Part shown: positions 37,615 through 60,500 of the stretch, piece by piece
Layout of the letters: every line of letters starts with the position of its first letter
Numbering within the stretch: the stretch's first letter is position 1
Source of the DNA: Hysterium pulicare CBS 123377
Taxonomy: Eukaryota > Ascomycota > Dothideomycetes > Hysteriales > Hysteriaceae
NCBI GenBank assembly: GCA_000467715.1
Contig: AJFK01000173.1
Location: 1-64,000, forward strand
DNA: 64,000 bases
Direction: 5' to 3'
The notes under the pieces: model-generated
The model's database searches: none
What the model was told of the DNA's origin: nothing
The model's input: only the letters and a program-made list of their open reading frames with translations
Made by a program: the position numbers and the translations under genes

Positions 37615-38708
37615 ATGAAGGCATCGAATGTATTGATTGGCGCTGCATTATCTCTTTCCACCATAACCGGAGCAGTACCTAGACCGAGAGGAAAGACGAC
37701 ATGGCCGGGCTGGAAGGGAATTCAACACATGTTTGTCTTGTACGTATAATAACCGTTAGATTCGGGTTTAGCAATGGATTAACATAACCACAGCGGCGAT
37801 TCGTATACTCAAACGGGATTTAATGTCAGCCTCCCCCAGCCGAACGCGGCGAATCCTATGGGAAACCCATCGTATCCGTATGACAGTGCCACAAACAGAT
37901 CGTAATGTATTGACTAACGAATATCAGAGGCTGGACCTCCTCCAATGGCCCTAACTGGGTCGACTTCTTAACAACAACCTACAACGCCAGCAGCATCCTC
38001 ACCTATAACCTCGCGTATGGCGGCGCAACCGTTGACGGCGCCCTCGTAGCTCCATATGCGCCCACAGTTCTCTCCATGAAGCAGCAAATCCAAGACGAAT
38101 ACCTTCCCACCTACGCCTCCAACACTTCCTCCGTCCACGTCCCCTGGACCTCATCCACCTCGCTCTTCGCCCTCTTCATCGGAATCAACGACGTCGGGAA
38201 TTCCTACTGGAAGCAAAATGCGACATTAATCGATATGATCTTCAAAGAGTATTCCGGATTGGTAGAGCAACTCTACGGCTCCGGAGCCCGAAACTTCCTC
38301 TTCCTAACCGTCCCACCCGTCCAACGCTCTCCGCTCACCATCGGCCAAGGAAACTGGTCCATAACTACTGAAGCGAGCGCCATCCAAGACTGGAATTTGC
38401 GCGTCAAGAACATGACGGTTTCCTTGCGCGCCTTTCACCCCTCCACCACCGTCTTCATCCACGACACTTACTCTGTCTTTAACCGCGTTCTCGACGATCC
38501 GAAGAGCTATGAGCAGACAGCTGGATATAAGAATACGACTGCCTTCTGCGATGGGTATCAGAACGGCACGCCGAGCTGGTATACATTCAATCAGACTTGC
38601 GGTGTGCCGGTTAATGAGTATTTTTGGCTGAATAGTCTGCATCCTACTTTTCCGATGCATAATGCTACGGCTATGACGATTGTGCAGACTTTGGAGGGGA
38701 GTGGATAG
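37615..38708 (+). CDS. Secreted SGNH/GDSL esterase (CE16-like), 329 aa
   Basis: Three exons: 37615..37739, 37794..37877, 37928..38708, with introns of 54 and 50 bp. The joins restore HMFVF-GDSYTQTGFN and NPSYP-GWTSSNGPNW. An N-terminal signal peptide (MKASNVLIGAALSLSTITGA) precedes a basic PRPRGK stretch. Block I Ser is in FGDSYTQTG, the block II/III Gly and Asn are in YGGATVDG and FIGINDVGNS, and the block V His is in WLNSLHPTFP. The position three before that His is Asn rather than the Asp of the classic D-x-x-H. Relatives de-acetylate plant cell-wall oligosaccharides at the cell surface. Several N-glycosylation sequons (NAT, NQT, NTT) fit secretion. Substrate is inferred only. Confidence 0.85.
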
Positions 38709-39415: not shown

Positions 39416-39649
39416 TTAGTAATACTCCACACTATCAACTATACAATTACAACATATCGAATGTCCACATCTCGAGCAACTATTCCGGGTTTCCGCCCCG
39501 AAATATGTGTTCGTTTGTCCACAACAACACTCCCAATGGCGGCGGCGGAGGGCAGTTGGTCGATAACATGCAGCACAGTTCGCAGGGGGGTTAGTGCTGG
39601 AATATATGGTTGAACGGCCGCAGGGGCAGGTATACTTACACCGTGCCAT
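39416..39649 (-). CDS. Miniature Cys-rich protein with two zinc-finger-like units, 77 aa
   Basis: Single ATG frame (39649), 110 nt downstream of a TATA box (CTATAAAAT on minus, 39759-39766). Unit 1 reads CKYTCPCGRSTIYSS then ANCAAC. Unit 2 reads WECCCGQTNTYFG, then SCSRCGHSICCNC, ending IVDSVEYY. The Trp-x-Cys-x-Cys, an Asn, then Cys-x-x-Cys order is close to the RanBP2-type (RBZ/NZF) zinc finger, with a further C-x-x-C or C-C-x-C after it. No signal peptide, so cytosolic or nuclear. Fourteen Cys in 77 residues with no stop is strong support for coding. Function unknown; RBZ fingers bind ssRNA or ubiquitin in other proteins. GTGTAAGTATACC just after the ATG resembles a donor, so a spliced form cannot be ruled out. 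Confidence 0.65.
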   Translation of the reverse strand: MARCKYTCPCGRSTIYSSTNPPANCAACYRPTALRRRHWECCCGQTNTYFGAETRNSCSRCGHSICCNCIVDSVEYY

Positions 39650-40125
39650 TTTGCCTGAGAATTGATAGCCTTGGAGATTGGTGGGGTTTGTGTGATATTG
39701 ATACTGGGTGGAGGCGACTTCGATGACTTTTCTGGATGTGGATGAGTATTTTCCGGGATTTTATAGATATGGTAGTCATATAATAATGGTGCTGATGCTT
39801 GAATGAATGTTGTTCTTATGCAAATGACCGAAGTGGAGATCCGCTGCCTTGTCGAAGAGGTTTCCGTGAAGAGGTACCCTAAATATGTCAGGGACTTGAC
39901 AAGTCCATATCTACTCGATACACAAAGTGAAGCCATGAGTTGAGGTCACGTAAAGCATGGTATGTATTATGACATAGCTATAGCTAAGCTACACCTTCAG
40001 CCCTTGAAGTTAGTCCGCCACATCATTCTATGCCCATCATGCCGAAAGGCTCCAGACTTATACAAATATCGTCAGAGCATTTCAACTCCAGTCTCGGCTG
40101 CAAGTGTTCTTCTGCTTATTCATAC
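39650..40125. promoter_or_regulatory. Promoter of the 77-aa mini-gene and 3' region of the next
   Basis: TATA at 39759-39766 (minus) is followed by a 110-nt C/A-rich leader. No other gene seen. Confidence 0.5.
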
Positions 40126-40284
40126 TTAATTTGGAGGATCCCAGTAACAGTTTTGGCAGCGTTCGATGGAGCAATAACGGCAACAATTATTGGATCCGAG
40201 GTTATTGGCTCTGCAATAGCAGTATATCCATGGTGGTATAGCCCTAGTCAGCTTGAGAGTTTGATTTGGGTTGGCGGTGGTCAT
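40126..40284 (-). CDS. Miniature Cys-rich zinc-finger-like protein, 52 aa
   Basis: ATG at 40284, 148 nt after a TATA (ATATAAAAC on minus, 40432-40439). A 19-residue polar leader is followed by WIYCYCRANNLGSNNCCRYC and then SIERCQNCYW. The order W-x-x-C-x-C-x3-N-x5-C-C-x-x-C is close to an RBZ finger, with a second C-x-x-C after it as in its neighbours. It was probably overlooked for size. The DNA 15-35 bp upstream of the TATA (GTGAACCACATCTC on minus) matches that of the 37-aa gene (GTGAACTGCATCTC), so the two promoters share ancestry. Confidence 0.62.
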   Translation of the reverse strand: MTTANPNQTLKLTRAIPPWIYCYCRANNLGSNNCCRYCSIERCQNCYWDPPN

Positions 40285-40693
40285 CTTTGATGGAGAGTTG
40301 GCGACTGGCGACTGGAGCTGATGGAGAGTTGGATTTGGAGGTTTGCTAGTTGGCCTTGGAGGAAGTATGAAAGTGTTGACTGTTGGTACTAAGTAGGGAA
40401 TAGAAGTGCTGTGAGTGCTGTGGAAGGGGGGTTTTATATGTGGGATAGAGATGTGGTTCACGGGAAAGATGTACGAGATTGTGAGTATGAGTGAAGGGAA
40501 GGGATATGTGTGTCAGAAGCATGAGTATAATGACTTAGTTTAGGGATTTAGTATTGGTAGAACCTAACTAAGTCGTGAAGTCGGCCCTGCTACTTCGATT
40601 CCCAAAGGCTCCAGGCCTCCCCTACGAATTCAAACCTTCTAAATGAGCCTCCCTAAACCTTCCTGTAGAGCCTCCGATTCAGTCATCCTCATC
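40285..40693. promoter_or_regulatory. Promoter and leader of the 52-aa mini-gene
   Basis: TATA at 40432-40439; upstream homologous element at about 40447-40465. The remainder is the 3' region of the 37-aa gene. Confidence 0.5.
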
Positions 40694-40807
40694 CTACTCA
40701 ACGCTATCATAAACACATGATGTACAGGGCTCATGCCAGCAAGTGCCACATTTATCGGCGTTACCAGGGTTTTTAGAGCTGCAGAAACAGCATCTCCAGG
40801 AAGTCAT
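40694..40807 (-). CDS. Miniature RanBP2-type zinc-finger-like protein, 37 aa
   Basis: ATG at 40807, 138 nt after a TATA (TATATAAACC on minus, 40945-40952). The protein starts MTSWRCCFCSSKNPGNADKC and continues GTCWHEPCTSCVYDSVE. W-x-C-x-x-C-x3-N-x6-C-x-x-C is exactly the RBZ/NZF consensus, followed by an added C-x-x-C. Its tail C-V-Y-D-S-V-E matches C-I-V-D-S-V-E-Y-Y of the 77-aa gene. It is nearly nothing but the finger, so would act by binding RNA, ubiquitin or a protein partner if folded. No signal peptide. Confidence 0.62.
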   Translation of the reverse strand: MTSWRCCFCSSKNPGNADKCGTCWHEPCTSCVYDSVE

Positions 40808-41299
40808 GGTTGGTTGGTTAAGAGGCTTTGGGATTGTGTTGGTCAACGTTGTTAGAGAGCTGTATCTCGAAGATTGATGTCTTTTGTTGCAGTAGAAAGT
40901 GTATGGATGTTGAGTGTTGCTCGGAGATGGAGGCCTGGGGGAGGTTTATATATGCGGAATCGAGATGCAGTTCACTGGGAAGACGTATGGGATATTGATA
41001 TAAGTGAAGGGAAGAGACTACTATTTTGGATTTATGAATAAAATAATCTACTGTAAAGATTGAGTCAAGGTACCTAAAACAGGCCGTGAAGTATGTCCCG
41101 ATGCTTTGACACGACTCCCTAGGCTTGGTAAGGCACCCGTTCAGTCGCAGAGTGAAAATTGTTTTCGTTTTGCTCCACGGTGTCGCAGATGCAGCAACTT
41201 GCAAGCCTCCTGCGAGCAATGCCAGTCACTTCGGTCGGTCTCGGGGCGCCGGCTTCGTAGTTTGGACATACGGTCTTTGAAGAGGTTCATCGAGGCTGC
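40808..41299. promoter_or_regulatory. Promoter of the 37-aa mini-gene, then spacer
   Basis: TATA at 40945-40952 with the GTGAACTGCATCTC element upstream. Beyond 41060 no feature is clear; it may hold unreadable remains of the kinase C-lobe. Confidence 0.45.
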
Positions 41300-41788
41300 T
41301 CAACATCCTTCTCGAAGACTGAGAAGCTGTGGGTGATTAGCTCTTTGCAGCTGTATTTGAAAGTTGCCATCAACGTGTTGGCCGAACAGGCAGTCATCCG
41401 TTGCTCTATGCCGCAGTGCCTCATAAACAAAGCCCAGCTGACATGAGAATAACTTGCGCTCAACCAGAGAATAAAGCTCTCCATAACCACAAAATTTTAT
41501 GACTTGGTTCCACCAACCTTTATTCGTACACAGTCGAACCGTCTCGACGATATTCAAGCTCTTCGCGATGCTATACTCCAACTTGACTTTCTTAATATAC
41601 TCGTCTTCGTTTTCATCCTTTCCTGTGCCGCGGAATGCTTTAACTCTAGCCAGATCTTCACCGCCTGAGACTCCCTCCCGAGCCATAAATCGCATTTCTG
41701 CGGTAGCACATTTCCCGATATATTTCCCATATTTCTGGATCGTGCCCTTCGGGGGCTTACTTGGAAGGTGAAGGAAAGGAGAAACCAT
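41300..41788 (-). pseudogene. Fragment of a Hal4/Sat4-like protein kinase (N-lobe)
   Basis: A 162-codon frame opens at ATG 41788, overlapping the stop codon of the S8 gene as TGATG. It reads KGTIQKYGKYIGKCATAEMR, then RVKAFRGTGKDENEDEYIKK, VKLEYSIAKSLNIVETVRLC, TNKGWWNQVIKFCGYGELYS. This follows the N-lobe of the fungal Hal4/Sat4/Npr1 kinases (Y-G-K-x-x-G, K-x-F-R-x, E-Y-x-K-K-V-x-x-E-x-x-I, N-I-V-E-T, W-x-x-V-x-x-x-C). The glycine loop is poor, the invariant Lys is unclear, and the catalytic HRD and DFG parts are absent before the stop, so it cannot be an active kinase. The homology continues weakly to about residue 110 and then fades. Likely a decayed kinase, or the remains of an S8-kinase fusion. 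Confidence 0.55.
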
Positions 41789-43729
41789 CACGGTTTCCCT
41801 ACAAAGATATTCAAATGGTTGGCGAATAGTCCGACGAGATCATTTGCGGCCATTCCTCTAGCAGACCACCTATCCTCGTGGTCTTTGTAGTCAGGACCTT
41901 TTTCTTCCGGGCTGAGCTTTCTCCCTTTCCTTATATCGAATATAGTCCAAGGATATACGTAGTCGAAGGATCCGTCTTTACGCACGCTCATTAGTTCAAA
42001 GACTTCTGCCATTCGCGCAGGCATCTTCAACTGTGCAGCAACTGCAGGAAATTCGTTCAATGGAGGCTGTCGAGCGAATTCTAATATGAGTGCCGCGGTC
42101 GCTGCTGCTATGGGTGTAGCGAAGGATGTCCCGGATTTGATCTTGGTGCCCTGCTCTTTTTCTTGATCCGTGAGCAGAAGATGTAATGGCCAAGCCGACT
42201 CAACCTCTTCTCCCAGCATGGCGAAGTTCCTTCCCATCGGGTTTGGAGGAGGATTGAAACCAGAATTCCCCCCTTCGCCATCAGCAGAGAAAATACACAT
42301 AACATTTTGTTCTCGTGCCGGCCAGGCGATGTTGATCGGTTTACTGGCGCCGTCATTAGAAGCTGCTGCAAAGACAAGTATATCCTTTTGAAAGGCGCGT
42401 TTTAGTTCCTCATATATTCCTGCGTGGTACTGCTCGTAGCCAAAAGACATGGTAATGATGTCGACATTCCATTCGTCGATACAATATCGGAGGGCATCCA
42501 CCACGTGGTCCGGATTGATTGTCTTCTCCACGCCACGCACGATACGAGCTACATATATGTCAGCTCGTGGAGCAACACGAAGAAGTAGGCCCGTGACATG
42601 TGTGCCATGACCGTTAGTATCTTTGCTCCATGGTGTGTCTTCCTTCTTAATGAAACTTCTGCCACCTTTGATCTGGTGCCCGCGATCTATGATTGCGTCT
42701 GGGGTGTTCTGGCGGGCGGACTTCTCGACCCCCGTATCTAAGACAGCGATTCGCACTCTTTCGTATTGACTCTTTCCATAGCTTCCAATGAGTTTTTCGG
42801 TAAAGTCATCAAGTCTAGTAAACCATGTCCTAGCAAGTCGTTGCCTAGCAGAATCAGCATAGTGGATATGCCACTTAAAAGGCACATATGACTTACTTGT
42901 ATTTGTTACCACCTTCACGCTGTACATCAAATAACGGTGGGTGCCGTTCGCGTTCGCGTCTAGGAGATGTCGAGGAAGCACGCCCCGGTTTCCCTCTATT
43001 CTGGTCACTCTTTCCCACTGTCGACATATTGTCTTGCGATTGTGATCTCCGCACACCTGTACCACCAGATTTACCGCCTCTCGATACTTTATTCCCTGCT
43101 TGATTGCCTGGCTTGAAACCTCCGCCATTTCCTGGTCTATCTTTTCTCCAAACAGGTTGGGCATCTGGCCCTCCTGGTTTACCTGGATTCCGGTTACTTG
43201 GCCCCGGGCTTTTCCGGCCCATACCAGCTTTCTGAGCATTGGGTGTCGATGACCGATTCTTAATCTCAGATGGGTCAAGTAGCCTCACACCGTCTGGAAG
43301 TCTTCCACGTGATGCGCTCCATGAACGAGGTCTTTGGTTACCATCTGAACCTGGCGACAAGGGCACATCCGAACGGAGAACATGTCTAATGCCCGCAAGG
43401 ATCTCATGGATAGACTTCTCAGGCGTGCTGCCATGACTACCCGAGCTGTTCGAACGAGGCTTGGTGCCGCCTGGCTCAAGTTTCCCGGGATCGCTGTTGC
43501 CAGGACTGGTTGATCTTTCTGGATTGCGCCCTCGTGGCGCATCGGTTTTCCCGTTGAACGCCCCTTTCTGGTTTTTTGGCGGTTCTACGTTGATTTCTGG
43601 AGTAGATCTCGACTCATGTGCATTTGGCCAGCGTCCACCATTCGGGCTCTTCCCGCCACGTTTTGCTGCACCGGCTGCGCGTAGTCTTGGCTTATCAACA
43701 TCAGATTGGTTGTTCGGATCCTGCTCCAT
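41788..43729 (-). CDS. Intracellular subtilisin-like (S8) peptidase with disordered N-terminus, 629 aa
   Basis: Two exons: 43729..42897 and 42844..41788, with a 52-bp intron (GTAAGT...CTGCTAG). The join reads GGNKYK-QRLARTWFTRLDD. Residues 1-275 are basic and Gly/Ser/Pro/Arg-rich without domains. The peptidase has the complete triad: Asp in RIAVLDTGVEKSA (about 310), His in TNGHGTHVTGLL (about 356), Ser in SGTSFATPIAAA (about 518), and the oxyanion Asn in AAASNDGAS. There is no signal peptide or propeptide, unlike secreted S8 enzymes. Cytosolic S8 domains of this sort occur in filamentous fungi, alone or in NLR-like architectures, with suspected regulated-cleavage roles. The start at ATG 43729 is the first in frame. 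A kinase fragment follows directly. Confidence 0.8.
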
Positions 43730-44990
43730 CTTCAAGCGCTTTCGCTCCTGCGTTATCGTGAATAGCCAAATCTTTCGCAGGACGGAAAGTCCTTGTGGAA
43801 TTTGCGATTTCGAGGCTGAAGATTGAAGATCTCACTCAGCTGCATAATTACGTTTAAATCCGGCTTGTGGTTTGTGCACAGCATACGCGAGTCATGTGAG
43901 GCCTCCCGAGCTTGGCATCAACCTCTCACCTTTCTCACGACATATCTTACTCTCTAGTACGCATCTCTCACACACACCACATACCCTTCCATCTTGATCA
44001 GCGGTTCCTTTGTTTTGAGGTTTGATTGGGTCTTATAAACTTGTACGAAGCTATCCAGCGGTACTGACTCTTCTTCCCAATGTGCCACAACTTTTGAAAG
44101 CCTCAATCAGTCCTTTAATCGATACTATGGAGCTCCCATAAACCTCGAATTGTTCATTCTCTCCGTGTTTTAGTAACATATACTACATGATACCGAGCAA
44201 AGTGTCTTTGATGCCCTCGCTGATTTTTCCTATCCTGTCAAGGACCTCAATCTTGGGCATTTAGCTCTAAGTTTGCTTGCTAGTGTGTCGGCGTGAGTAT
44301 GTCTTATTTTCGTTACGTGATTGAACCATGCAAAGGTGATCAATTCCTTTGGCTAAGCAAACCGATCCGGCTCCATTCATACATTATTATGACAGCCTCG
44401 GCACTTAACCCCAGCGTCTACAATGGAGATTAGGAAATCAAGATGTCCCGATAACTTTTAAGTTGGTAAGCTTCAAGCTAAACGCCTTTCCAGTTTTGCG
44501 CTAACTTCTAGTTGATGTGTACCATCCATTAATCATCGCAGTCTCTAGTCTAACACGCCTGTATATCTGATATCCGTACATTTTAATATTCTTCAGATCG
44601 TTCTGCAAAGTCAGGATTTGTGCTGCTTATTCCGAGCCCTCCGAGGTAGCCGTCATGGTTGTGAATTCTTGCGGCCTCGACTCACCATATCTGTCCGGCA
44701 GTCGAGGCTTCGGCGAGAGCAGTTGATTCACTCAATTCACTGGATTCTGCACTCGGCCCCCGCTTTCGGGCCGTGAACACGTCCGAACGTTGTTACGAAT
44801 TCCAACTCTTTCACCAAAATGCCCCGCCCCGACGTTGTTCCGACCCCATACTTATAAACAGGTAGCTACTGCAATTCGGACACCACTTTATTCAAAAACT
44901 TCATCGGCAACCGAACTCTGGTCTCAACCCACCAGCGACTAGAATTCTATTGCCTTGTCTTTTCTGAACACTTTTCTCAACCGTGTCAAC
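43730..44990. other. Divergent intergenic region, 1.26 kb
   Basis: Promoters of the S8 gene (minus) and the orphan membrane gene (plus). A TATA box (CTTATAAACA, 44851) lies 138 bp before the ATG 44991. No gene seen. Confidence 0.5.
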
Positions 44991-47654
44991 ATGCCATCGT
45001 CCATCACATCTACGGCTATTGCATCTTCAGCAATGTCAATTCCAACTCCGAACACTCGACACATGAACCCCGTTTGGCCAATTGTTGCTATGGCTGTCGC
45101 AACTTTGTCTAACGAAGCTCCGATAGCCTTGTTAGCTGGTCTTGCGGCTTTAGGGTATATTCTTGCACAGGCATCCGAGCAAGCTGATGATCATCTCAAC
45201 TCCCTCAAACGAAAGCGGCGAACTCCATCGAAACCCGCCTTGAAATTATCCAGCGTGGACCAACTGTGGCCAATAGGCGTTATTGCAATTGCAACTGTGA
45301 TCAACGAGGGGTCCGTTATGCTCTTCGTAAGCGTGGCAACCTTCTTATACATCCTCGCCAAAGAACCCCCATCAAAGGAGTCAGCTCAACTTTACAACGC
45401 TTGTACAGACATTATTCTCTTTCAACCGTTTCAACAAAATGCTGAATTCAAGATGGAGAGTTACGGACCCCCCTGCACACGTGGGATGGTCAAGTCCACG
45501 GCATCGATTCTTATTCCCAGCTCCATCTACACCACGTTCAAATTGATAAATGAGATTTCCTTGGTAAAGACTGGAACCCACCAATTGGAGTGGTACCAAG
45601 AAGGACTCAAAGCTGCCGTCAGCTTCTCCGAGTGGCTAGAATTCCGGTGGCAGCTGTCAACCTCTCCAATTCTGCACCTCCAGGAATGGGAGGCAAAGTT
45701 TCAGTACCCGTCCACTCAACGTCCACACCTCGCAGAGTATGCTGAAAAGGAGCTCCATAATTCCTGCGCTCTTCTGATCGGAAAGGCGCATGGAGGGAGA
45801 AAATTTATAGGAACCTTACGCACCCCCACGAGCACACCTAACAGTATATCACCCATTATATTCCCTGCTGATACGAATCAATCATTTACTAATCTCGTGA
45901 CAGATGGGCCGATTCAGGTACAACATCATAATCCTTTTGATATTGCCGAGGGACTGAAGGTACTGGTCGGCCGGGATAAGATTCTGGCACGTGGCAATAA
46001 TCGCCTCGGATACGACCCAGTACTTTGCGACCGAGCGCCGCCAATGAACCTGAATGGTCGCTCTGGAACCGCTACGCCAAACGTGGAAGATCTAGATGAC
46101 GATGTGTTATTAGACGAAACAATCCTACAATCTCCAACGCTAAGAGCACAAAAGCTTTCGTGTGCCGATCTCTCCTATGAAAACCATGCTATCCGACGCT
46201 ATGATCCAAAATTAAGATTACCGGTTTCAGACTCATCGTCGTCTGATGAGGAGCACAGCAACCACAGCACTGTGCCGACGACCCCTGACATTATGACTAG
46301 CTCATTTCAGCATTGTTTGGCTAGTCCATCTGTCATCTATCGCTCCCAGATTCCACTGCCTACAAGTACTTCTGAACAAGAATGGCAAAATTACAACGCG
46401 CTCAGGGTGGGAGAATATTTCTATCACCGTATGCAGTTAGCTAGGTGGAGAAACTTCAAGGATCAAGAGCGGCAAGAGCAGGACGTTGGTGAAGAGCAAG
46501 ACAGTATTGGCGAGACGCAAGTTGACCAACGTCTTTGGTATGGCTTGTCAGATGAGGAGCTCTTCTCACTTCTTGAGGAACTGGTATATTATCACGATCC
46601 TATTAGCGAATTCACCCGTGAAAAGTGGCGTCTCGCACTCGAAGTTCAACGGGGGAACACATTCCAAGCGTGGATCAAAGGAAGCACCAATGCATGGGCC
46701 TATGTGATATCAGGACCCTTAGCACAGCGGCGATATCAGAGGGCTATGCGACTCCAAGATTTGCTGAGGAACCCACCTCATACACCCAAGCCCCGTCACG
46801 GCGGAGAGATTGATCGCTTCCTCGAGATCCATAAAATTTCTCGAGCTAAGTTGGACGATGTACTCGCGATCCATTTTTCATATGGAAATGCCCGTTATTT
46901 TCTTCCACAGATTGAGGCTGGAGCTTTGACGCCAAGCCGCAAAGAATTTATCGACTTCCAATTTGCGGATCAACCGACAGCAGTCAACTCCGGACCTGAT
47001 GGTGAATTCGAAGCCTCCGATTCCACCTCAATCCAACCCGGTGCTGCCAATTCAGGATACGGACAACTTCAACAACTAAAAGCCGGGTTCCAAAGCCTTG
47101 CGACACGTTACCAGCAAAATGCTCAACGCATTTGGTTATCCAAAGCTCCACGGCCTACTCAACCGGCTGTAGCGCAGGTCTGTCATCAATATCTGCGCCA
47201 GACCTGCGGGCTAACGGCTCAACAACATGCTATAGATCCGGAGTACGAGAAATTACAACAGCTGCAGGCAGAGTATCAAGGTATTGAAGCATGTCGTCAG
47301 CAGTACGCTGGACCCGTCTACTCGGCGAAGGTTACCGCTCCCGACGTTGCGCGAGTCTGCCACGAGTACTTGAGCCAGATCTGCGCGCCACACCATATTG
47401 AGGTTACTCCTTCAGCCGTTGCACGAGCCTGCTATCAGTACTTGAACCAGGCAATAGCTGAGCCGCATCAAGATGCAATTTCTCGGCAAACGGCGCAGAA
47501 ATTTGGCCTTGCGAGTCGAGTCGGTCCACCCCCTATTCCTTTCCAGACTGGCCTGCGCGCTCAGTTTCCTTTGGAATTCGCGCATATCGACGATATCCCT
47601 ATGCAGGATGGTGAGATGATGTATCAAGAATTCGGATTCAGGAACCTTTGTTGA
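44991..47654 (+). CDS. Orphan membrane protein with duplicated hydrophobic repeat, 887 aa
   Basis: Single exon; ATG 44991 is the first in frame after the TATA at 44851. Two hydrophobic segments, about residues 28-60 and 92-124, are copies of one repeat: VWPIVAMAVATLSNEAP and LWPIGVIAIATVINEGS, each followed by a hydrophobic stretch ending G/L-Y-I-L-A. They may form two membrane hairpins or spans. The rest is soluble and charged; a central region has WYGLSDEELFSLLEELVYYH and EIDRFLEIHKISRAKLDDVL. Near the C-terminus a 13-residue motif recurs three times: VAQVCHQYLRQTC, VARVCHEYLSQIC, VARACYQYLNQAI. No known family. A paralogue follows at 49,013. Function unknown. Confidence 0.75.
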   Translation: MPSSITSTAIASSAMSIPTPNTRHMNPVWPIVAMAVATLSNEAPIALLAGLAALGYILAQASEQADDHLNSLKRKRRTPSKPALKLSSVDQLWPIGVIAIATVINEGSVMLFVSVATFLYILAKEPPSKESAQLYNACTDIILFQPFQQNAEFKMESYGPPCTRGMVKSTASILIPSSIYTTFKLINEISLVKTGTHQLEWYQEGLKAAVSFSEWLEFRWQLSTSPILHLQEWEAKFQYPSTQRPHLAEYAEKELHNSCALLIGKAHGGRKFIGTLRTPTSTPNSISPIIFPADTNQSFTNLVTDGPIQVQHHNPFDIAEGLKVLVGRDKILARGNNRLGYDPVLCDRAPPMNLNGRSGTATPNVEDLDDDVLLDETILQSPTLRAQKLSCADLSYENHAIRRYDPKLRLPVSDSSSSDEEHSNHSTVPTTPDIMTSSFQHCLASPSVIYRSQIPLPTSTSEQEWQNYNALRVGEYFYHRMQLARWRNFKDQERQEQDVGEEQDSIGETQVDQRLWYGLSDEELFSLLEELVYYHDPISEFTREKWRLALEVQRGNTFQAWIKGSTNAWAYVISGPLAQRRYQRAMRLQDLLRNPPHTPKPRHGGEIDRFLEIHKISRAKLDDVLAIHFSYGNARYFLPQIEAGALTPSRKEFIDFQFADQPTAVNSGPDGEFEASDSTSIQPGAANSGYGQLQQLKAGFQSLATRYQQNAQRIWLSKAPRPTQPAVAQVCHQYLRQTCGLTAQQHAIDPEYEKLQQLQAEYQGIEACRQQYAGPVYSAKVTAPDVARVCHEYLSQICAPHHIEVTPSAVARACYQYLNQAIAEPHQDAISRQTAQKFGLASRVGPPPIPFQTGLRAQFPLEFAHIDDIPMQDGEMMYQEFGFRNLC

Positions 47655-49012
47655 CCACTGTATACCCCTTTCAGACCTTCCAGGATGATTGGTCTGGGTT
47701 CTGTGAGACGCATCAAAGAGCTTTCGCAACCGTAAGCGTTGCCTACTTGGTCCCAGTATTTCGTTACTGTCTTTAAAAACTTTAGCTTGGGAAAAAGATT
47801 CACCGGTATTTATATAGACTGAATACTCCAGGCTGTGAGCACACAAATTAGTGCCTGAATCATATAATAACCTTTGATTATCAATTCTACTGTAAGGTGA
47901 TCCTGGTATATGGATGGATTTCGAAATCCCATGCCAACCATGTGATTGGTTCGGTGCATAGTTCCCCCGCTCCGTATCCCACATCCATCCATCCCTTTCT
48001 CTGAACTCTCTACTTCTCTAGCATTTGCACACGATATCTTCCACAATATGTGATAAATGGAAACGTGAATGTATTGAGTCTTTGCCTATCTAATGATTCT
48101 TTGATGAATCTGTCGATTTTTTCCGACCAGCTACGGATGCCATTCGTTTTGCGGTGTGCCTTCACAATGATCGACTTCCACCTTCCTCGTTATCCGAAGG
48201 CCAACGATGATCCAGCTTTGACCCTTCTGGAAAAGTACAACAGGATACTATCGCTTTGCCTTGAAATGAATTCCCAGGTCGCCGTCTATGATAAACTTAA
48301 TACACGTTGACCTGCGGTCCTTCGAAATTGAACATTTCTCCTCCCGTCTGCTACAAGATAGAGTTACTATGCTATTTTACAGGCCTGCCTCAAGTTTCAA
48401 CGTGCCTTTAAAGCCTGTCACGAAGCCCAAATGATGTAGGTAGGCTGGAACAAAAGAACAACAGATTAGGAGACTCAGGTCCTCAATTTTAAGTTTACCC
48501 TTTTCAAGTCGTCATGCCTCCCTTCACTTCTTTGTGGGTTCTCTTACCTACGTCAATCTTGATGACTTCTTTATACAGGAACACGGTATTCAAAGCCCAA
48601 TTGCATGAGATTTGGCAGCCAATAACCTTCGGGATATATCGCTACGTGCATCAATCGAGTTTTCTACTACTAATTGTATATTTACATAGCTCTAAGTCTC
48701 CTTGCCTTAGTTATGTATGACATGCCCTTCGTTGTACGTGTACAGTTCTGACGATGTACTTTCACTTCTTGGCGTGGGCGGGGGCTGTGATTAGTCCGGC
48801 GCATATTTCTTCCGCTCCGTACACGTTATTCACGCCTTTCACTTAGAACCGTCCCTGCAAAATAGTGATCCGGTTCCACTTCAGCCTATATTTTCCCTCG
48901 TAGGTGCTCTACTTTCTTCTGCATTTCATTTCATTTGAATCAACCAGACTCCACCGACAACAAATCAACCCGAGTCTCTGTCTTACCGAATACTTTTGCT
49001 CTATCTACCAGT
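47655..49012. other. Intergenic, 1.36 kb
   Basis: A minus-directed TATA-like TTTATATAGAC lies at 47811 but no convincing frame follows. Short frames at 48050..48310 and 48514..48720 lack ATG context or motifs. TATA-like CCTATATTTT at 48881 may serve the next gene. Confidence 0.4.
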
Positions 49013-51994
49013 ATGTCAACTTCGCTTGCCAACTCGTTGGCCACGTCGACGCCCCCCTCGACCATGTCAGTGCCAACACCGAAAGTACAATCAAAGAAGG
49101 CTCTTTGGCCTGTCCTTGCGGTGGCTATCGCCACTCTTACAAACGAACCACCGCTCGTTCTCGCTGCCAGCATGGCCGCTTTGGGCTACTTGTTTACTAC
49201 AGTATCCAAGCACCCTGACCGTCTTCGTCCACTAAATTTCCCTGATGCGGAGTTGCGTCCACCGTCCAAGCCTCCGCTAAAGCCAAAAAACATGGACACT
49301 ATCTGGCCAGTATTGGTTGTCGCGCTGGCGACTCTTGTCAATGCACCCCCTGTCGTCCTGGCAGCCGGTGTCGCAGCACTTTTCTACATAATGACGGCAA
49401 AGTTAGAAGATGTAGTAGACCAGGTTACCACCTCTCAGCAACTTGTAGTCACGAGGCCTCTTCGATGTTCTCCACAAATCGAAGAAATATCGGTGCTCAA
49501 GACCACCATCCTTCTACAAAGTACTATCGTTAAATCCTTCCGTCTACCTGCGTCGGCCTCCTCTCCACGAAAAAACCCACTACTCCTGGAGTGGTACGAT
49601 GAGAGTTTGCCATTAAAAGACAACATCTCCAACTATGCAGACTCCGCGCTTCAGCTTCCGACAAAGTTTTCCCTTGGGATTCAGGCTTGGATCATAAAGT
49701 TTGGCATACTCAGAGTCCATTCCACGATCTTCATACGAATTGATCCGGACTCCCCTGACAGCCAACAGGACTCTGGTTCAGAGCGAATTGGAGAAGCCAA
49801 GAGTACAGCACCCACTACTCCTGACCTCAGTGTTGTGCCAAAAAGTCGTCCCAACCAACCTCAGCGAGCTATCGAGCTCACCAATCCTATATATGATAGA
49901 CGTCCAGCCAAGGCGCTTAACTCGAATCCCATTGATTGGCCCAAGAATGCAGCTCCACAGTCTGTGGCGGAAGACTTTTACTTCAGCATCAACCAAGGAT
50001 CAGATACGATTGGTATTGACCTTGGACCACGACGTGCGCCCTTCCTTGCCAACGAAGGCCTCCCCGTAGACTTCGCGTCGCAGCTCATGGCCGGCCAACT
50101 GCAAAAGTCGAAGAAAGTCAAGACAATCAAGACAATGAAGCCGAAGTCGAAACAAAAGGAAAAGCATTTCTGTCTGACGGAGTGTAATCTGGACTACGTG
50201 CAGTATTACGGTAAACTGACACAAGATGATCGTGCGGCTGTCCGTCAAGCCAACCGTGCTTTTGGGCGTCAGTCTGATTTCATGGACTCTCGCCCTCTTG
50301 GGCCTTTTATAAATCCGCCTGAGTATACGTGTGAGGATCCGAGGAAGTGGGCTTTGTATTTTCTTCGCCTTCCTCCACTACGACATCAAGAAAAGGTAGA
50401 GTTCTATGCGACTCAATGGAAATTGACGAAGGAAGCAGCGCGCAAGATTCTGCTCCAAGTAGAGATTGACGAGGCAACGCAAAAAATTAACAAAGCCTTT
50501 CAGCATGGAAATCAATGGCGGTCGATTGTTTCGAAACCACAACTTGATTCTACTCAATCAATGGGTCTATATAAGGAACAAACCGCTATTGAGACCCGCT
50601 GGCATGAACAGCAGCTTCAACTTTGGTGGAAGGCCCTGCAGCATCCGAAGACTGTATCGAATGCTCACACTGAATGGGACCCGAACCGATACGACCCATT
50701 CGAATCTCCGGAAGACTTTTTGAAGATGTTGCGAGTCTATCAAGATGCACATCTTCCCGATCCGGAACGCTTGATGCTTCAAAAGGCGTACGCCGACTAC
50801 CTGCGGCTGGGATCAATTGTCGCAATTCTCAAGGAGAATTACGTCTGCCCTAATATCGCACCCACGGGCGAGCTATTCCTACGACGACGCGAGACGCAAG
50901 CCGAACAACTTTGCAACGAGGGAATGGAACAAGGACCTGAGAAACTTCCCTCTCTAAGTCCTGAAATAATGCCTCAATCCGCTGCACCTATACTCCAGCG
51001 TACCGGAGCTGCCTTCGCTGACAAGTACTCATTTGTTCGCCAGCTAGATTATAGCAACGACAAGTTCACAGAAACTCGTCAAAAGTGGGCGCAGATTTTC
51101 CCTTACAACGACACCAACATCCCGGAACAGCTCCGGCCATTTGATCCGTTCTGCGATCCAAATGTCATTCGCAGCCTGATCGGATGGGCCACATGTCTAG
51201 AGAATGAGCGCCAAACGATCATGGCGCATGGCCTTCCCGAACAAAGCCTGGAAGAGCGACGGAAGACGTACCAGGGGAGCATCGAACGTTTCCTCGGTAT
51301 CGATGACCCCATGCGAGTGTTTATTAGTCAACAGGCTGCTGCGCGCGGAGAGATGGTTGTTGATATCGACAAGCAGTACACAGTTCAACGAGCAGCTGAA
51401 GTTGAGCGTATGGAACGTCTCCGGATGCGGAACACGCCGCAGGTACCCGATACTTCTTCAAATATCCCCGCTCAACATCAAACACGTCAGACTCGGCCTG
51501 CTCGTGTGGCTCCACGCCAGAGACGCTGGAATGCTCCTGCCGCAATCCAGCTGCCCTCCTTTCAACCTCCTGTTGCAGCCCCAGCTACGCACATCAATCC
51601 TCCAACGGCAAACCAGTTCGAAGATGCTTTTCAGCACGAGGCCAATAAGCCGAGCAATGCGCCTAAGCTGAATCAGTACGCCGTGCCTGTCCCTCCGGTT
51701 TTTGGGAACAAATTCGATACTGCGCCACGTCTTATCAAGAGCACTAGACGGGAAGGGAAGAAGTCTCGATTCTTTCCCACAACGCAAAGCCGGTCTGAAG
51801 ATGCTTCCCAGGCCGAGGCCAATATATCTACCAACGGACCCAGCCAGACTCAGCAGCTTGTCCATGTTCCTCCGGGCTTTGAGAGCACGTTCGGTCCTGC
51901 TCCCCGTGTTATCAATAGCAGCAAGCAGGAAGGGCAGGGTGGAGGTGTTCTTAGCAACATGCAATACCGGAAGAAGTCCCGATTCTTCCCGTAA
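49013..51994 (+). CDS. Orphan membrane protein, paralogue of the 44,991 gene, 993 aa
   Basis: Single exon, ATG 49013. The N-terminus has the same two-copy hydrophobic repeat: LWPVLAVAIATLTNEPP (about 31) and IWPVLVVALATLVNAPP (about 97), each followed by V-L-A-A...A-A-L-x-Y. The spacing (66 residues) matches the neighbour (64). The body includes basic stretches (KKVKTIKTMKPKSKQKEK) and acidic/aromatic segments such as WALYFLRLPPLRHQEKVEFY, without a known domain. The C-terminus has two related units of about 65 residues, each with a P-P-x-F-x-x-x-F-x-x-A-P-R-[LV]-I core and ending KKSRFFP. The paralogues are strongly diverged after the first 130 residues. Function unknown. Confidence 0.75.
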   Translation: MSTSLANSLATSTPPSTMSVPTPKVQSKKALWPVLAVAIATLTNEPPLVLAASMAALGYLFTTVSKHPDRLRPLNFPDAELRPPSKPPLKPKNMDTIWPVLVVALATLVNAPPVVLAAGVAALFYIMTAKLEDVVDQVTTSQQLVVTRPLRCSPQIEEISVLKTTILLQSTIVKSFRLPASASSPRKNPLLLEWYDESLPLKDNISNYADSALQLPTKFSLGIQAWIIKFGILRVHSTIFIRIDPDSPDSQQDSGSERIGEAKSTAPTTPDLSVVPKSRPNQPQRAIELTNPIYDRRPAKALNSNPIDWPKNAAPQSVAEDFYFSINQGSDTIGIDLGPRRAPFLANEGLPVDFASQLMAGQLQKSKKVKTIKTMKPKSKQKEKHFCLTECNLDYVQYYGKLTQDDRAAVRQANRAFGRQSDFMDSRPLGPFINPPEYTCEDPRKWALYFLRLPPLRHQEKVEFYATQWKLTKEAARKILLQVEIDEATQKINKAFQHGNQWRSIVSKPQLDSTQSMGLYKEQTAIETRWHEQQLQLWWKALQHPKTVSNAHTEWDPNRYDPFESPEDFLKMLRVYQDAHLPDPERLMLQKAYADYLRLGSIVAILKENYVCPNIAPTGELFLRRRETQAEQLCNEGMEQGPEKLPSLSPEIMPQSAAPILQRTGAAFADKYSFVRQLDYSNDKFTETRQKWAQIFPYNDTNIPEQLRPFDPFCDPNVIRSLIGWATCLENERQTIMAHGLPEQSLEERRKTYQGSIERFLGIDDPMRVFISQQAAARGEMVVDIDKQYTVQRAAEVERMERLRMRNTPQVPDTSSNIPAQHQTRQTRPARVAPRQRRWNAPAAIQLPSFQPPVAAPATHINPPTANQFEDAFQHEANKPSNAPKLNQYAVPVPPVFGNKFDTAPRLIKSTRREGKKSRFFPTTQSRSEDASQAEANISTNGPSQTQQLVHVPPGFESTFGPAPRVINSSKQEGQGGGVLSNMQYRKKSRFFP

Positions 51995-54518: not shown

Positions 54519-57500
54519 ATGCCACCGCCCAAGCCCGGACAGCCAGGCACAGCCGAAGGGAAGCCCAAACGCCGACAAGGGCATAGGCAACCTAACAAGA
54601 ATGGAAAGACAATTGCCACCGATGAGCAGGTAAGTATAATCATGAAGTATAATGAGATAAGAATCACTGACCGTATTCCAGGTCAACGAGACGGTTCCCG
54701 AAAAGGCTCTGTCCTATGAAGGGTCCAAGGGAAAGCGCAAACGTCGCCGAGGGCGTAAGAGATCTAATAAAAAGGACAAGACAACTGCCGTCAATGGAGA
54801 GCAGGTAAGTATAATCATGAAGTATAATGAAATAAGAATCATTGACCGTTATCCAGGTTGACAAGATGATTCTCGAAGAGAATGAGTCCCCTGAAGCGAC
54901 CGAAGTGTCTGCTGTGACGACATTTCCTCCCACGACTTCACCTTCAACGGCGTCTCCTACAACATCCTCTCTTACAACATCCTCTCCTACAACATTCTCT
55001 CCTACAATATCCTCTCCTACAACATTCTCTTCTACAACATCCTCTCCTACAACATCTTCAACGAGGTGTTCACTGGGACATCAAGAGATGACTGCCCCTG
55101 TTCCTCAGATGTTCGCATCTGTCAACATGAACGCTATGTTGTTGAAGATGGATAAAGCCCTCGCAAACTTCCACGAGAGCAAATCCGAAGTTGAGGAGGC
55201 TCGAGATATGTTGTCGATGTTGATCCATGGTGCAATTGTTCCGCCCCAAGCTGAATCAGACGCCCAGTCTCAATCAGAGGTCCGGCTCGTCGCCTCAACG
55301 ATGCCTGCCGAGAATAAATCGCGTCCCGTCTATGATGGCAACAGCGAACAAGTCATCATTAAGATCGGCCAGCAGACTCCGAATGTCATCTTCCCTGCAG
55401 CTTCTACAGCTCAGACGGCTGCGGTAGTAGCTGGGCCTCCTGTCATTACTGAAGAGATTGTGCCAACTGCATCGAAGTCTGAGAAGTCAGCTGCTTTGCC
55501 ACAAGAGGGAACTATACCGAACGATAGGCCTTCCGGTGAACACTCTGGCGGTTCACAGGTAGAGGAAGTTGGCCCAGTGGCGTCAAGTGATGCTCTAGAG
55601 GAAGATGTCAAGATCGTTTCAACAAGCAATCCCCCCACTGGAACTATCCAGGATGAGCAGACTGGCTCATTAACATCGACGCTTAATGGATCTGCAAACG
55701 ACTTCGAGAATGCTGAGCTTAGCTGCCAACCGCATCAGCCGACTTTTGAGTCTCTCATCCAGACTGGAGATGATGAGCCACATGCTGAGAATCCAGAAAT
55801 GGCAGTTGTGCTCTTCATCTCTAAAGAGACTGTGACTTACGGCAGCCACTTCCAAGAGGATAGGCGTTTAACAACGAGTTTGGCAGGTACCGTTGGTAGT
55901 GAACATCAGCCAGGGAAACTGGACGACCAGGCAGTCATCATCTTTTTGATCCCCTTTGGCGACATCCTGAATCAATCCATGAAGAATCGAGTGATCGGAA
56001 CTACATTAACTGCTTCCACGTCTTATGGAAACGTTAGTACCTCGCAGGATCTTGCGTCGACCGATGCCCCATCTACATCATCCACTGGCCGTAGCGACGA
56101 ACAGCTAAATGAAGAGCGTTCAATTCATCACGCAGGAAAGGAACTTGTCTTATTCAAAGATACGAATGAACCCGACTCTCATGATGATGAAGTTGAAGAG
56201 AATCAACATTATACGATGAACCCGGCGACCGACGCGGATGGTGAGAGTTTTCAATTGGATGAAGATACCACAACACGCCGGGAGGACGAAGACGCTCCTA
56301 CCGAGGATGAAGACGCTCCCGAGAACGGGGACGCCCCTATCGAGAACGAAAAAGCTCCACGTTGGGTTTACGTTTGGGAAGGGCAGCCCCAAAACATCAC
56401 CAACGACGTTCGAGCATACTACAGAGAAATGGATATCTACGTCGACCGGGCGTACTATATACGCCATATCAAAGAACATGAGAAGCAGCGGCGTCAAGTA
56501 TTCCTACTTGGGCAGATGTGGGAGGCAACATGGGAACTTAAGCTGCGTGACGAAGGCTTCCAACGGATAGTGCATTTTTATGGTGTTGCGGAGCTGAAGA
56601 AGGAGGCTAAGAAGATGTTCCCGGCAAGTTTGGCACGTATCTTCGGGTCCGAGAACGCAACCACACTTGGCAAAATTCTGGACAGTATTAAGGAAGCTGC
56701 TACACTGCAGGCGCGCCAAGAAGCGCTGCAAGATTGGAGTCGGAAGATTGAGTCCTTAACCGATATCGACGTTACTCTGGGTGAGGGTGAGCTAGGGAAA
56801 GAAACGATCAAGAGATATGGCACTGAATACGTGCTCAAAACCATTTCTCCGAACTTGGATCTGACTCGAGCCACTCAGACCCAGATCAAGAGAATTCAGA
56901 GAAGAATTAAGGACCTGATCGGGGCAGAAGGCGACTTGTACTACGACCTGGAAGATGCAAAGGCCAAATTCGAACGCGAGAATAAGATTATACGCCAGGT
57001 CATCGTTCCAGAGATCAAGGCAGGAATTGACTTCGAGCGACGAAGAAATGCTGCGGGTCGTATCATCGGCCTTGGGATGGGAGAAACTAGAACAGCTGTC
57101 ATTGGCGAAGCTCTCTCCCAGAACGAAGCAGAGATTTTCAATCCTTTCCCTCCCGCCAGCGAATTTCTCAACCCATCACATACTATCACGCAATATGATG
57201 TCGATGCTCTAGAAACGGTCGAAGAACTACTCCAGGGCATTCGGCGTTCTTCAGGGCACAGGAACTCGGTGTCATCTTACAGTTTTGTCGGTTCGGTCCC
57301 AAATGAGATCCAAGAAGAAGCTGAGCGATTATCAACCACCACCAAAACCACCATCAAACCAGCTGTGGATTTCGCAGAACTTGGGTGGGCTTATGCCAAC
57401 GCTCGTGCAAACTTTAGTGCCGTTTTGCCCGTCATCAGCCCACAAGACATTCGACAACTGCCGGCAAGACATGAAGAATCTTCTCCGGTTCCAAATACGT

Positions 57501-60500
57501 CTTGGGGTTCGCCGCGATTCATACTTCCACAAAATCCGGCAATGGGACGTCCAAAATTCAGAATTCCACCATGCTTTCCAGGATTGTTCTCTGGCCTGCC
57601 TCAGAAACTCGGTTTTAAGGTCGGATGGACTACATGGGAATTTCGACCATGTTCACATGGATTCGTAGATCGCGACAATCCTCAACCGTGCCCTTCTTTT
57701 GATTCAGGACCGGACCATATGGCTGGTACAGAAAATGAGTCATCGTCTTGTTCATCGTCTTGCTCATCCGCTCAACGCTGCTTGTCAATTGGAAACTTTG
57801 GCTGGCTGCGAGGGAACGACAAGGATGAAGGAGCAGCAGAAGCTCCTCAATCAACTGCATCTCCAACAGTCCAGCCGCTTCCTTCGGCCTCCGGTCCGAT
57901 GCTAAATTCATCAAGTGCACCGATGACTTCCACTAACCATCCTCCAGTTGTCAAACAACCTACTACAATCTTCAAAATGGATTTTGGACCGGCTATGACA
58001 GGAGCCCGTGGAGGAAACCCACGAGCTCGAGGAAAGGGGGGCCGCAACAGAACTGCCGCAACAAACTCAACCCCGTCCTCGACGCAACGACCTCTTGGCA
58101 GTCGCCTTTCGAATAGTGCGAAAGGGTTCCAAACTAAAGGTACAACTGCCAGTCAAACACACGGATTTGGCGGATTTGGAGGCTTCGGACAAAGCCAGGC
58201 ATCACCCTTTGTAACGGCATCTGGACCTCCTCGCACCTTCGGGGCCCAGGAAGGCTCATTTAAGTTCACTGCTGGAGCAACGACTGTGAAGAATCCTCAC
58301 CAGTCTGGTTCCTCAGGCACATTTTTTGGATCGAATCCTACCGGTAATCCATCTCCCGCCACTGCCTCCGTCTCTCCAGCAGCTCCTCCACCCCATGCTA
58401 CTGGCACTCCTTCTACTAGTGCAGCCGAATCTTCGTCTCAAACCAACGTTGCACCAGACGATGAAGATGAGCATGCGGATGGAGCTTCAGACACGATTCC
58501 GATGCCCGATACGGAAGATTTCAACAATGAGCCCGTAAATGACGAAAAATCTGCTGCTGCCAACCTGAGCTCAGAAAGTGATGGCTCAGCTAGTACAACT
58601 GTTCGCGGAGATAGGAGGATTCAGACTCCCACAACGGACACTGAGACTGGAGTTACGTCGAAAGAACCTGATGCTACGACATCAGCAGGCCCACAACCAA
58701 AGACCCGATCAACTGGTGCAGCTCCGGCAGACAAGATCAACGTTTCAAATAAAGGGAACGTGAAGGGGGTCCTCGATGAGCGATGTCAAGATTTGGAAGC
58801 GGGCCTTCCATACCAACAAATTGCTCCGGAATTCTATTACACCGGCGAGGAAGACGAAGATGCTCCCAAACCCCGAATGGATGCACCCGGCAATACATCT
58901 AGCCTACCAAGCGGGCCACTTGCCAAAGAAGAATCGACGGCCTCAGACACGGAGAATCAAGAAGATGTTGCCGCGAGCGAAGAGGATGATGCTAGCGAGG
59001 ACGGCGAGGATGATGACGAACTCTCCAGCCATGATTCGGACGACGAAAGCGACGAGGATGATGACGATGCTCCTCCAAGCGGCGGAGCAACTACAGCTTC
59101 AGCCCCGCAGTCGAGCGATAACCATCAAGATGGCAACGGCGACCATAGCGAGTCGACCGGTCAGCATCGTGAAGCAGGTCATGGTGAGGACGTTGGAGAA
59201 TCTTCGAAGCCGGCATCAACAGACTCAACTTCCAAGGAGCAAGACACGCCGGCCAATGACCAGCAAATCCTAGATGATGCCCAGGTACCTGGTTCTCCCA
59301 AGCCACTTCATTCAGCGCAAGAGACGGAGACCAATTTCGAAGAGGAAATTTACGCAGAGGGATTTAGTACACGACCGACTGCTACTCAAGAGACTCAAGC
59401 AACTTGGTCGAGCTACCAAGCTGGGCAGCAGAAGGCACCGGCGTCTCACACAAAACCCATCGAAAATCTGTTTGGAGGGCCAAATCCACATACGTTCGCA
59501 CCATCTCTAGCGAGCGCCGGTCCAACCCAAGGCCCTCTGGATGGAGCATCAGCAGCGCCTTCAGACATATCCAAGGCGGCGTTTAAGGCTGCTGATTGGG
59601 CTTCGATATTTGCCCCGGGATCTGATAGCAACAACCCATTCGGGTCGGGGCTGATCAACAACCCATTCGCAAGTTCATCAAATGGAACCACGAAAGCCCG
59701 AAAGGCTCCGAAACCAAAGGCACAAGTGGCGCCCCAGCCAGCAGGCAATCCGACCTTTGGTGTCGGGGGTTCTGGAAGTAATCCATCAATAGTGGTTACA
59801 CAAGGCGATTTGGGTGCAATTACCAGTGATGCCCTCACTAGGTTCAACTTCAACATTCGCGTAGAAAAACATGCGGCATCTTTACTAACTCCTGCTGCTG
59901 CTGCGAACTTGGAGATTTCTGGCGTGAGTGACGTCCCCAAAGACGCTTCCCAAACCACTCCGAGGTTAAATGGAACGGTGAAGGAGAATGATGCGTCAAC
60001 ATCAACGGTGTCAAAGCCGACTTCGGAAGAGCACACTCAACCAGAGCCGACAGTGTTGTCCAATGGGAGCAACGATGATTCAAGGACAATAGATTCGATA
60101 CGAGCTGCTGGAGGTTCTGAAGTGATTTTTGACCCACTCGTTGCCCCAACCACTACAATAGAGGCTCCAGAAGCGAAGTCTGAAGTTGCTAAAGACAAGG
60201 AGCCACCTTCGCGACTAACAAAGCCGAGTGCAGTGGATCGAGCTCCGGCAGCTCCAAATTCGAAGATTATAACCTCAAACGTCTTTGGAGACTCCGATAA
60301 TTCTGATGGCGCGATTGGTATCCACCTCAATCCGTTCATAAAGTACAAGATACCTCAGATGGAAGATGAGAGTGAAGCTGGTGATGATAGCGAAGATGAC
60401 GAAAATGCTGAGCCGATGCGTATCACTAAGAAGAAGCCTAGGGGTGGCCCTATACCTTGCACGGTTAACTTGCAGGGAAAGTATATGAGCAGAAGCAGTA

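Follow-up and report, generated by a model that had tools for sequence, protein, structure and literature searches.

Three tandem minus-strand frames of Hysterium pulicare as probable members of a dispersed family with a putative two-zinc module

Three small frames and a duplicated promoter

Within the window, by which we mean the whole 64,000-nucleotide stretch of DNA analysed here, three short open reading frames were observed on the minus strand, between a GDSL lipase frame (37914-38708, plus strand) and a subtilase frame (41788-43284, minus strand), the latter adjoined by a further, unassigned frame (41300-41839). ORF37 (40694-40807) encodes a finger-only protein of 37 aa in which all eight candidate metal ligands, 7 Cys and 1 His, are present. 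ORF52 (40126-40284) encodes 52 aa with a divergent finger, in which Tyr occupies the first Cys position, Ile occupies the His position and one extra Cys is found. ORF77 (39416-39649) encodes 77 aa, with a half-finger-like CxC...CxxC stretch followed by a full finger whose C-C-x-C is one residue short. Frames of 77, 52 and 37 codons had been called in an earlier, sequence-only reading of this DNA, and their coordinates were recovered exactly. The D-S-V-E tail that had been described for two of them was also observed, as C-x2-D-S-V-E in both ORF37 and ORF77, with different codons for the S and the V.

Each frame is preceded by a TATA box (pattern TATA[A/T]A, minus strand), as had been claimed, located at 40947-40952 for ORF37 (145 nt before the ATG), 40433-40438 for ORF52 (154 nt) and 39760-39765 for ORF77 (116 nt). 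The leaders, of 139, 148 and 110 nt respectively, are free of ATG in all three cases and have a C+A content of 70-73%. Leaders without ATG were observed in 22 of 183 checks, covering every TATAWA of the window on both strands at the three leader lengths, with the three genes' own TATA boxes counted in. The TATA boxes and leaders suggest separate small transcription units, and the three frames are probably real small genes.

Promoter DNA common to two of the genes, also proposed earlier, was confirmed in a comparison of three sequences. The copies belonging to ORF37 (40940-41109, minus strand) and ORF52 (40426-40598, minus strand) are alike over about 170 bp, with 115 of 173 positions identical (E 2e-17). 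The differences between them comprise 30 transitions and 25 transversions, with no clear bias that would point to repeat-induced point mutation. A genome search with the ORF52 promoter (170 bases, 40431-40600) returned only itself, and thus no high-identity repeat was seen, although the 66% identical neighbour copy was missed by this search as well.

Ten frames of the window were scanned with Pfam, and five of these gave families (oxysterol-binding protein, GH43, MOSC, GDSL lipase and subtilase); the gene content looks fungal. Two neighbouring plus-strand frames of 903 and 1041 aa (44943-47654 and 48869-51994) resemble each other across roughly 250 residues close to where they begin (32% identity, E 1e-28), with hydrophobic WPV..A.ATL.NE segments; Pfam matched neither frame. 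A single open frame of 2516 aa (54836-62386, plus strand) was also observed, in which Ser, Thr, Pro and acidic stretches are abundant by eye.

A dispersed family and the membership of the window proteins

The genome containing the window (37.2 Mb, 596 contigs) was searched for related fingers, giving a family of 22 fingers, carried by 19 frames on 12 contigs, the window's own included; outside the window there are at least 19 fingers in at least 16 frames on 11 other contigs, all member counts being lower bounds. The pattern W-x-C-C-x-C-x3-N matched 14 places compared with 2 for its reversed form. Of these matches, nine belong to the final 22-finger alignment (A3), two are outliers (C376 and C39) that were present in alignment A2 and excluded from A3, and three are without the second half of the domain. 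Relaxing the pattern to W-x-C-x2-C-x3-N gave 82 matches against 35 for the reversed pattern and gained two C47 frames; 81 of these 82 places were examined in their locus, a match with an in-frame stop (C572) being left out. The pattern W-x-C-C-x-C-G gave 14 matches against 3 reversed, including six A3 fingers and one broken relative, while Y-C-C-x-C-G-x-G gave 6 against 1, with the finger present in five of the six. Two subtypes were apparent, W-x-C-C-x-C-x3-N and [W/Y]-Y-C-C-x-C-G-D-G-P. Also excluded from the 22-finger counts were the broken or partial C244, C175 and C511, and C361, C409, C575 and others without the second half.

Protein searches of the genome with members outside the window retrieved further members, and single-sequence searches with ORF37 and ORF77 returned self matches and no family relative; ORF77 additionally matched one weak place (E 0.0055) that has three stops and is without the domain pattern. 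The sequence-only reading had described a tandem family of finger-only proteins. The three tandem finger-only frames are indeed there, but the family as a whole is spread over the genome, on other contigs too.

With the first in-frame Met taken as the start and introns disregarded, nine of the 19 frames do not exceed 80 aa (37, 52, 77, 66, 72, 54, 55, 78 and 62 aa). The C276 frame is at most 86 aa, the C172 frame is long and partly covered, and three frames (133, 155 and 168 aa) contain two fingers. A larger member is the C421 frame of 351 aa (locus C421:14965-15069), which has a family finger at its start and a second Cys/His-rich stretch at its end (ACPFLKHDP...GWPNVHRLK) that resembles a common fungal C2H2-like motif; Pfam gave nothing over a cut-off for it. 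In five finger pairs tried, pN (0.21-0.44) was lower than pS (0.71-1.10) in all five, the alignments being protein-guided, which lowers pN; because such alignments favour low pN, the C50/C421 pair (69% identical) is the most trustworthy.

Family membership of the three window proteins was evaluated with an independent profile built from the 19 fingers found elsewhere in the genome, without the window proteins themselves. With composition correction off, ORF37, ORF52 and ORF77 each outscored every one of their 5000 shuffled versions (32.3, 19.8 and 25.3 bits, compared with best shuffles of 28.1, 18.2 and 23.4 bits). With the HMMER composition correction on, ORF37 was the first of 1970 window frames (E 0.0013), followed by a frame at E 0.13, with the best reversed frame at E 1.8; ORF52 (row 78, E 18) and ORF77 (row 338, E 86) were not found among these frames. 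A leave-one-out profile to which the other two window fingers had been added placed ORF37 at E 0.0015 and ORF52 at E 10, and did not match ORF77. In the search of the window frames with the correction off, ORF77 and ORF52 occupied rows 3 and 4, and a Cys-rich reversed frame scored 18.6 bits, above the 17.8 bits of ORF52. Profile evidence beyond composition was therefore obtained for all three proteins by shuffling, and for ORF37 only under the HMMER correction. Because of these outcomes we regard ORF37, as judged from its sequence, as a clear member of the family and ORF77 as a likely one, while the putative membership of ORF52 rests mainly on the promoter it has in common with ORF37, together with the shuffle test.

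Chance open frames that happen to contain cysteines would explain why the frames are short, and why ORF52 and ORF77 drop out after composition correction. This explanation is very improbable, since a motif fitted to the three frames after they were seen matched three times in the window and never in order-2 Markov DNA amounting to 1560 windows (156 sequences of 640 kb), and both the shuffle results and the promoter duplication also argue against it.

Broken or partial copies of the family were observed at C175, C244 (with a stop) and C511, which suggests birth and death of family members. The window frames could themselves be pseudogenes left by larger zinc-finger genes, or pieces of genes that are spliced, and the existence of such broken relatives, the two ligand positions lost in ORF52 and the three of 19 frames without an in-frame Met would all agree with this. 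We consider decay unlikely, however, because a TATA box, an ATG-free C+A-rich leader and a start are present separately for every one of the window frames, and not one of 5000 shuffles was as good as the corresponding window protein.

Beyond this genome, the C9 protein was compared with prokaryotic contigs (15 stretches with the pattern) and ORF77 with viral contigs (5 stretches), and none of these stretches was a relative. In the literature searched, from which most subscription papers fell outside the scope, no description of this family was found. Hypothetical proteins of a similar C-C-x-C-G-D-G-P type seem widespread among the Pezizomycotina (filamentous ascomycetes), in which case the family would already be known at the sequence level, though not by name.

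Domain architecture and the RanBP2 assignment

The core of the domain is mostly [W/Y]-x-C-C-x-C-x(10-14)-C-x2-C-x-H-x2-C-x2-C. Across the 22 aligned fingers the eight ligand columns are occupied by Cys in 21, Cys in 19 (with His in one more), Cys in 22, 22 and 22, His in 19, and Cys in 21 and 21. The exact pattern C-C-x-C...C-x(2-4)-C-x-H-x(2-4)-C-x(2-3)-C is complete in 16 of the 22, ORF37 among them, and incomplete in six, which include ORF52 and ORF77. A set of seven Cys and one His would fit a pair of zinc ions, and we infer from this that the eight positions may hold two. Pfam and NCBIfam gave chance matches only for the three window proteins, and Pfam gave no match over its curated cut-off for six further members and four longer members. 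Over the 22 fingers the best Pfam match (E 0.0029) was of one member to A2L_zn_ribbon. AlphaFold2 models were uninformative (pLDDT 52 and 40, from three-row alignments of window sequences only). The best reading of these data is a fungal family built on a putative two-zinc module with no clear Pfam match.

A different use of the metal would be buffering by metallothionein-like peptides. The very small size of these proteins and the cysteine content of the 37-mer (7 of 37 residues, about 19%) fit such a role, and one of the 22 members weakly matches Metallothio_11 (E 0.073). A conserved Trp or Tyr, an Asn or Gly-Pro, and a His at near-fixed spacing argue against it, as does the existence of larger and two-finger members, and we regard metal buffering as improbable.

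The sequence-only reading had interpreted the frames as free-standing RanBP2-type (RBZ) fingers, with a possible role in binding RNA or ubiquitin. The RBZ consensus is given, in an extract of PMC7154859, as R/K-x-G-D-W-x-C-x(2,4)-C-x3-N-x6-C-x2-C-x3-R/K, with four Cys ligands and one zinc, and an extract of PMC6384913 names the Asp before the Trp and the core Asn for recognition of GGU RNA. The exact fit claimed for the 37-mer holds for the core, W-x-C-x2-C-x3-N-x6-C-x2-C, but not for the flanking R/K-x-G-D and R/K; M-T-S stands before the W, and a Pro is found four residues after the second C-x2-C. The finger pattern claimed for all three frames is likewise present in the 37-mer, while the 52-mer reads W-x2-C-x-C and the 77-mer has 10 residues, not 6, between the Asn and the next Cys. 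Over the family, the core W-x-C-x(2,4)-C-x3-N-x6-C-x2-C was observed in two of 22 fingers (ORF37 and C57; ORF52 and ORF77 fail); 13 fingers have Asn in the column where RBZ has it, and one has G-D-W, so that the Asp before the Trp is nearly absent.

Two sequence marks associated with RNA and ubiquitin binding, R-R following the Asn and the dipeptide T-F, were observed in none of the 22 fingers. The proposed RNA- or ubiquitin-binding role is not supported, the marks that were checked being absent or nearly so.

Searching the genome with the Pfam RanBP2 model (PF00641) gave at least eight places, at least three of them over the cut-off, and none of these lies in the window or in the family. PF00641 was absent from the matches of the three window proteins and from the matches listed for the 22 fingers (25 of 28 families). 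Three matches over the cut-off, at C105:29093-29407 and C494:825-1146, are the clearest RanBP2 fingers of the genome and belong to two similar copies of one gene, with a frame of 127 aa at C494 and 303 aa at C105.

Fingers of RBZ type binding GGU-type RNA or ubiquitin would account for the core fit of ORF37 and for the Asn column. They would also agree with the best single-sequence PDB match of ORF37, a RanBP2 finger at E 0.37, and with a profile comparison with five RBZ fingers (probability 90%, E 1.7e-6, a pairwise value from small alignments). We nevertheless consider this unlikely and have rejected the RanBP2 label, given the core fit in two of 22 fingers, eight candidate ligands in place of four, with an additional conserved H-x2-C-x2-C, the failure of PF00641 to find any member while it matches elsewhere in the same genome, and a slightly better match to Rpb12 (below). 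The weak core fit and the missing PF00641 match point to a likeness to a ribbon core and not to RBZ membership.

Proposed role and closest known systems

With moderate confidence, we favour family membership of the three frames together with a structural zinc module that has a putative binding role. The three would be diverged, tandemly arranged representatives of a fungal family that has many copies and is built on one compact Cys/His domain, a reading supported at the sequence level by eight conserved positions, the spread over 12 contigs, pN below pS in the paralogue pairs and the duplicated promoter. In the domain, a zinc-ribbon-like half could be formed by Cys 1 and Cys 3 of C-C-x-C together with the middle C-x2-C, and a second zinc site by Cys 2, the His and the final C-x2-C; alternatively, the whole domain might adopt a RING-like cross-brace. 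No hydrophobic N-terminus was observed by eye in the three window proteins, and they would thus stay in the cell, where the domain could offer a protein- or nucleic-acid-binding face.

Finger-only copies might act as small adaptors or competitors for the larger and two-finger members, that is, as microProteins as defined in an extract of PMC6003976. Competition with, or bridging of, larger members is the mechanism to consider first, because this genome also has the module in its two-finger frames and in the 351-aa frame, and we propose it tentatively. Equally speculative is the fuller picture, in which an eight-ligand, two-zinc domain of about 30 residues has spread by duplication, giving larger proteins and finger-only microproteins with their own promoters, and so a dispersed family of intracellular regulatory peptides. 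Should this picture be correct, two zinc ions would organise the fold of a protein of 37 residues, a very small size for any gene product of definite structure, and size cut-offs in gene callers would readily hide an entire family of such genes. The family would also provide a natural test case of fungal microProtein regulation, with larger proteins of the same module in the same genome. A more general lesson is that four cysteines alone are a poor basis for naming fingers.

Among known systems, the Rpb12/RPABC4 zinc ribbon (PF03604) has a similar arrangement, [W/Y]-x-C-x2-C-G-x2-N...C-x2-C-G-[H]. Rpb12 was the best PDB profile match of the family (E 4.2e-4, compared with 0.19 for the RanBP2-type ZNF265), and profile-profile comparison with three Rpb12 sequences gave a probability of 96% (E 4e-9, again pairwise and from small alignments). 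The first half of the domain thus appears slightly nearer to the Rpb12 ribbon than to RBZ. The Rpb12 match ends at profile position 28 of 37, Rpb12 being without the second Cys and the H-x2-C-x2-C second half, and PF03604 itself matches one of 22 members (E 1.5). An Rpb12-type ribbon was accordingly rejected as the family's identity, since the ribbon ends after the second knuckle and the family adds the His (19 of 22) and the last two Cys (21 of 22). The RanBP2 finger (PF00641) has the core W-x-C-x2-C-x3-N...C-x2-C in common with ORF37, whereas the family has eight conserved ligand positions.

The C-x-H-x2-C-x2-C of the family weakly resembles the middle of the RNF4 and TRIM RINGs (E 0.36-1.6), and two members match the IBR half-RING at E 0.013 or worse. 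Compared with a RING, the family is far shorter and is without the last C-x2-C pair. A RING finger, with C3HC4 ligands and a final C-x2-C beyond a long loop, was likewise rejected, ORF37 having no final pair and the best RING-named Pfam match being of one of 22 members to zf-RING_5 (E 0.031). For finger-only organization, the closest counterpart is Arabidopsis SRP1, described in an extract of PMC7154859 as having three RBZ fingers and 'no other known motifs', and the earlier statement that finger-only RBZ proteins are undescribed was accordingly too strong. The window proteins resemble SRP1 in consisting of little beyond the finger, whereas SRP1 is a plant protein with genuine RBZ fingers, several of them in one protein.
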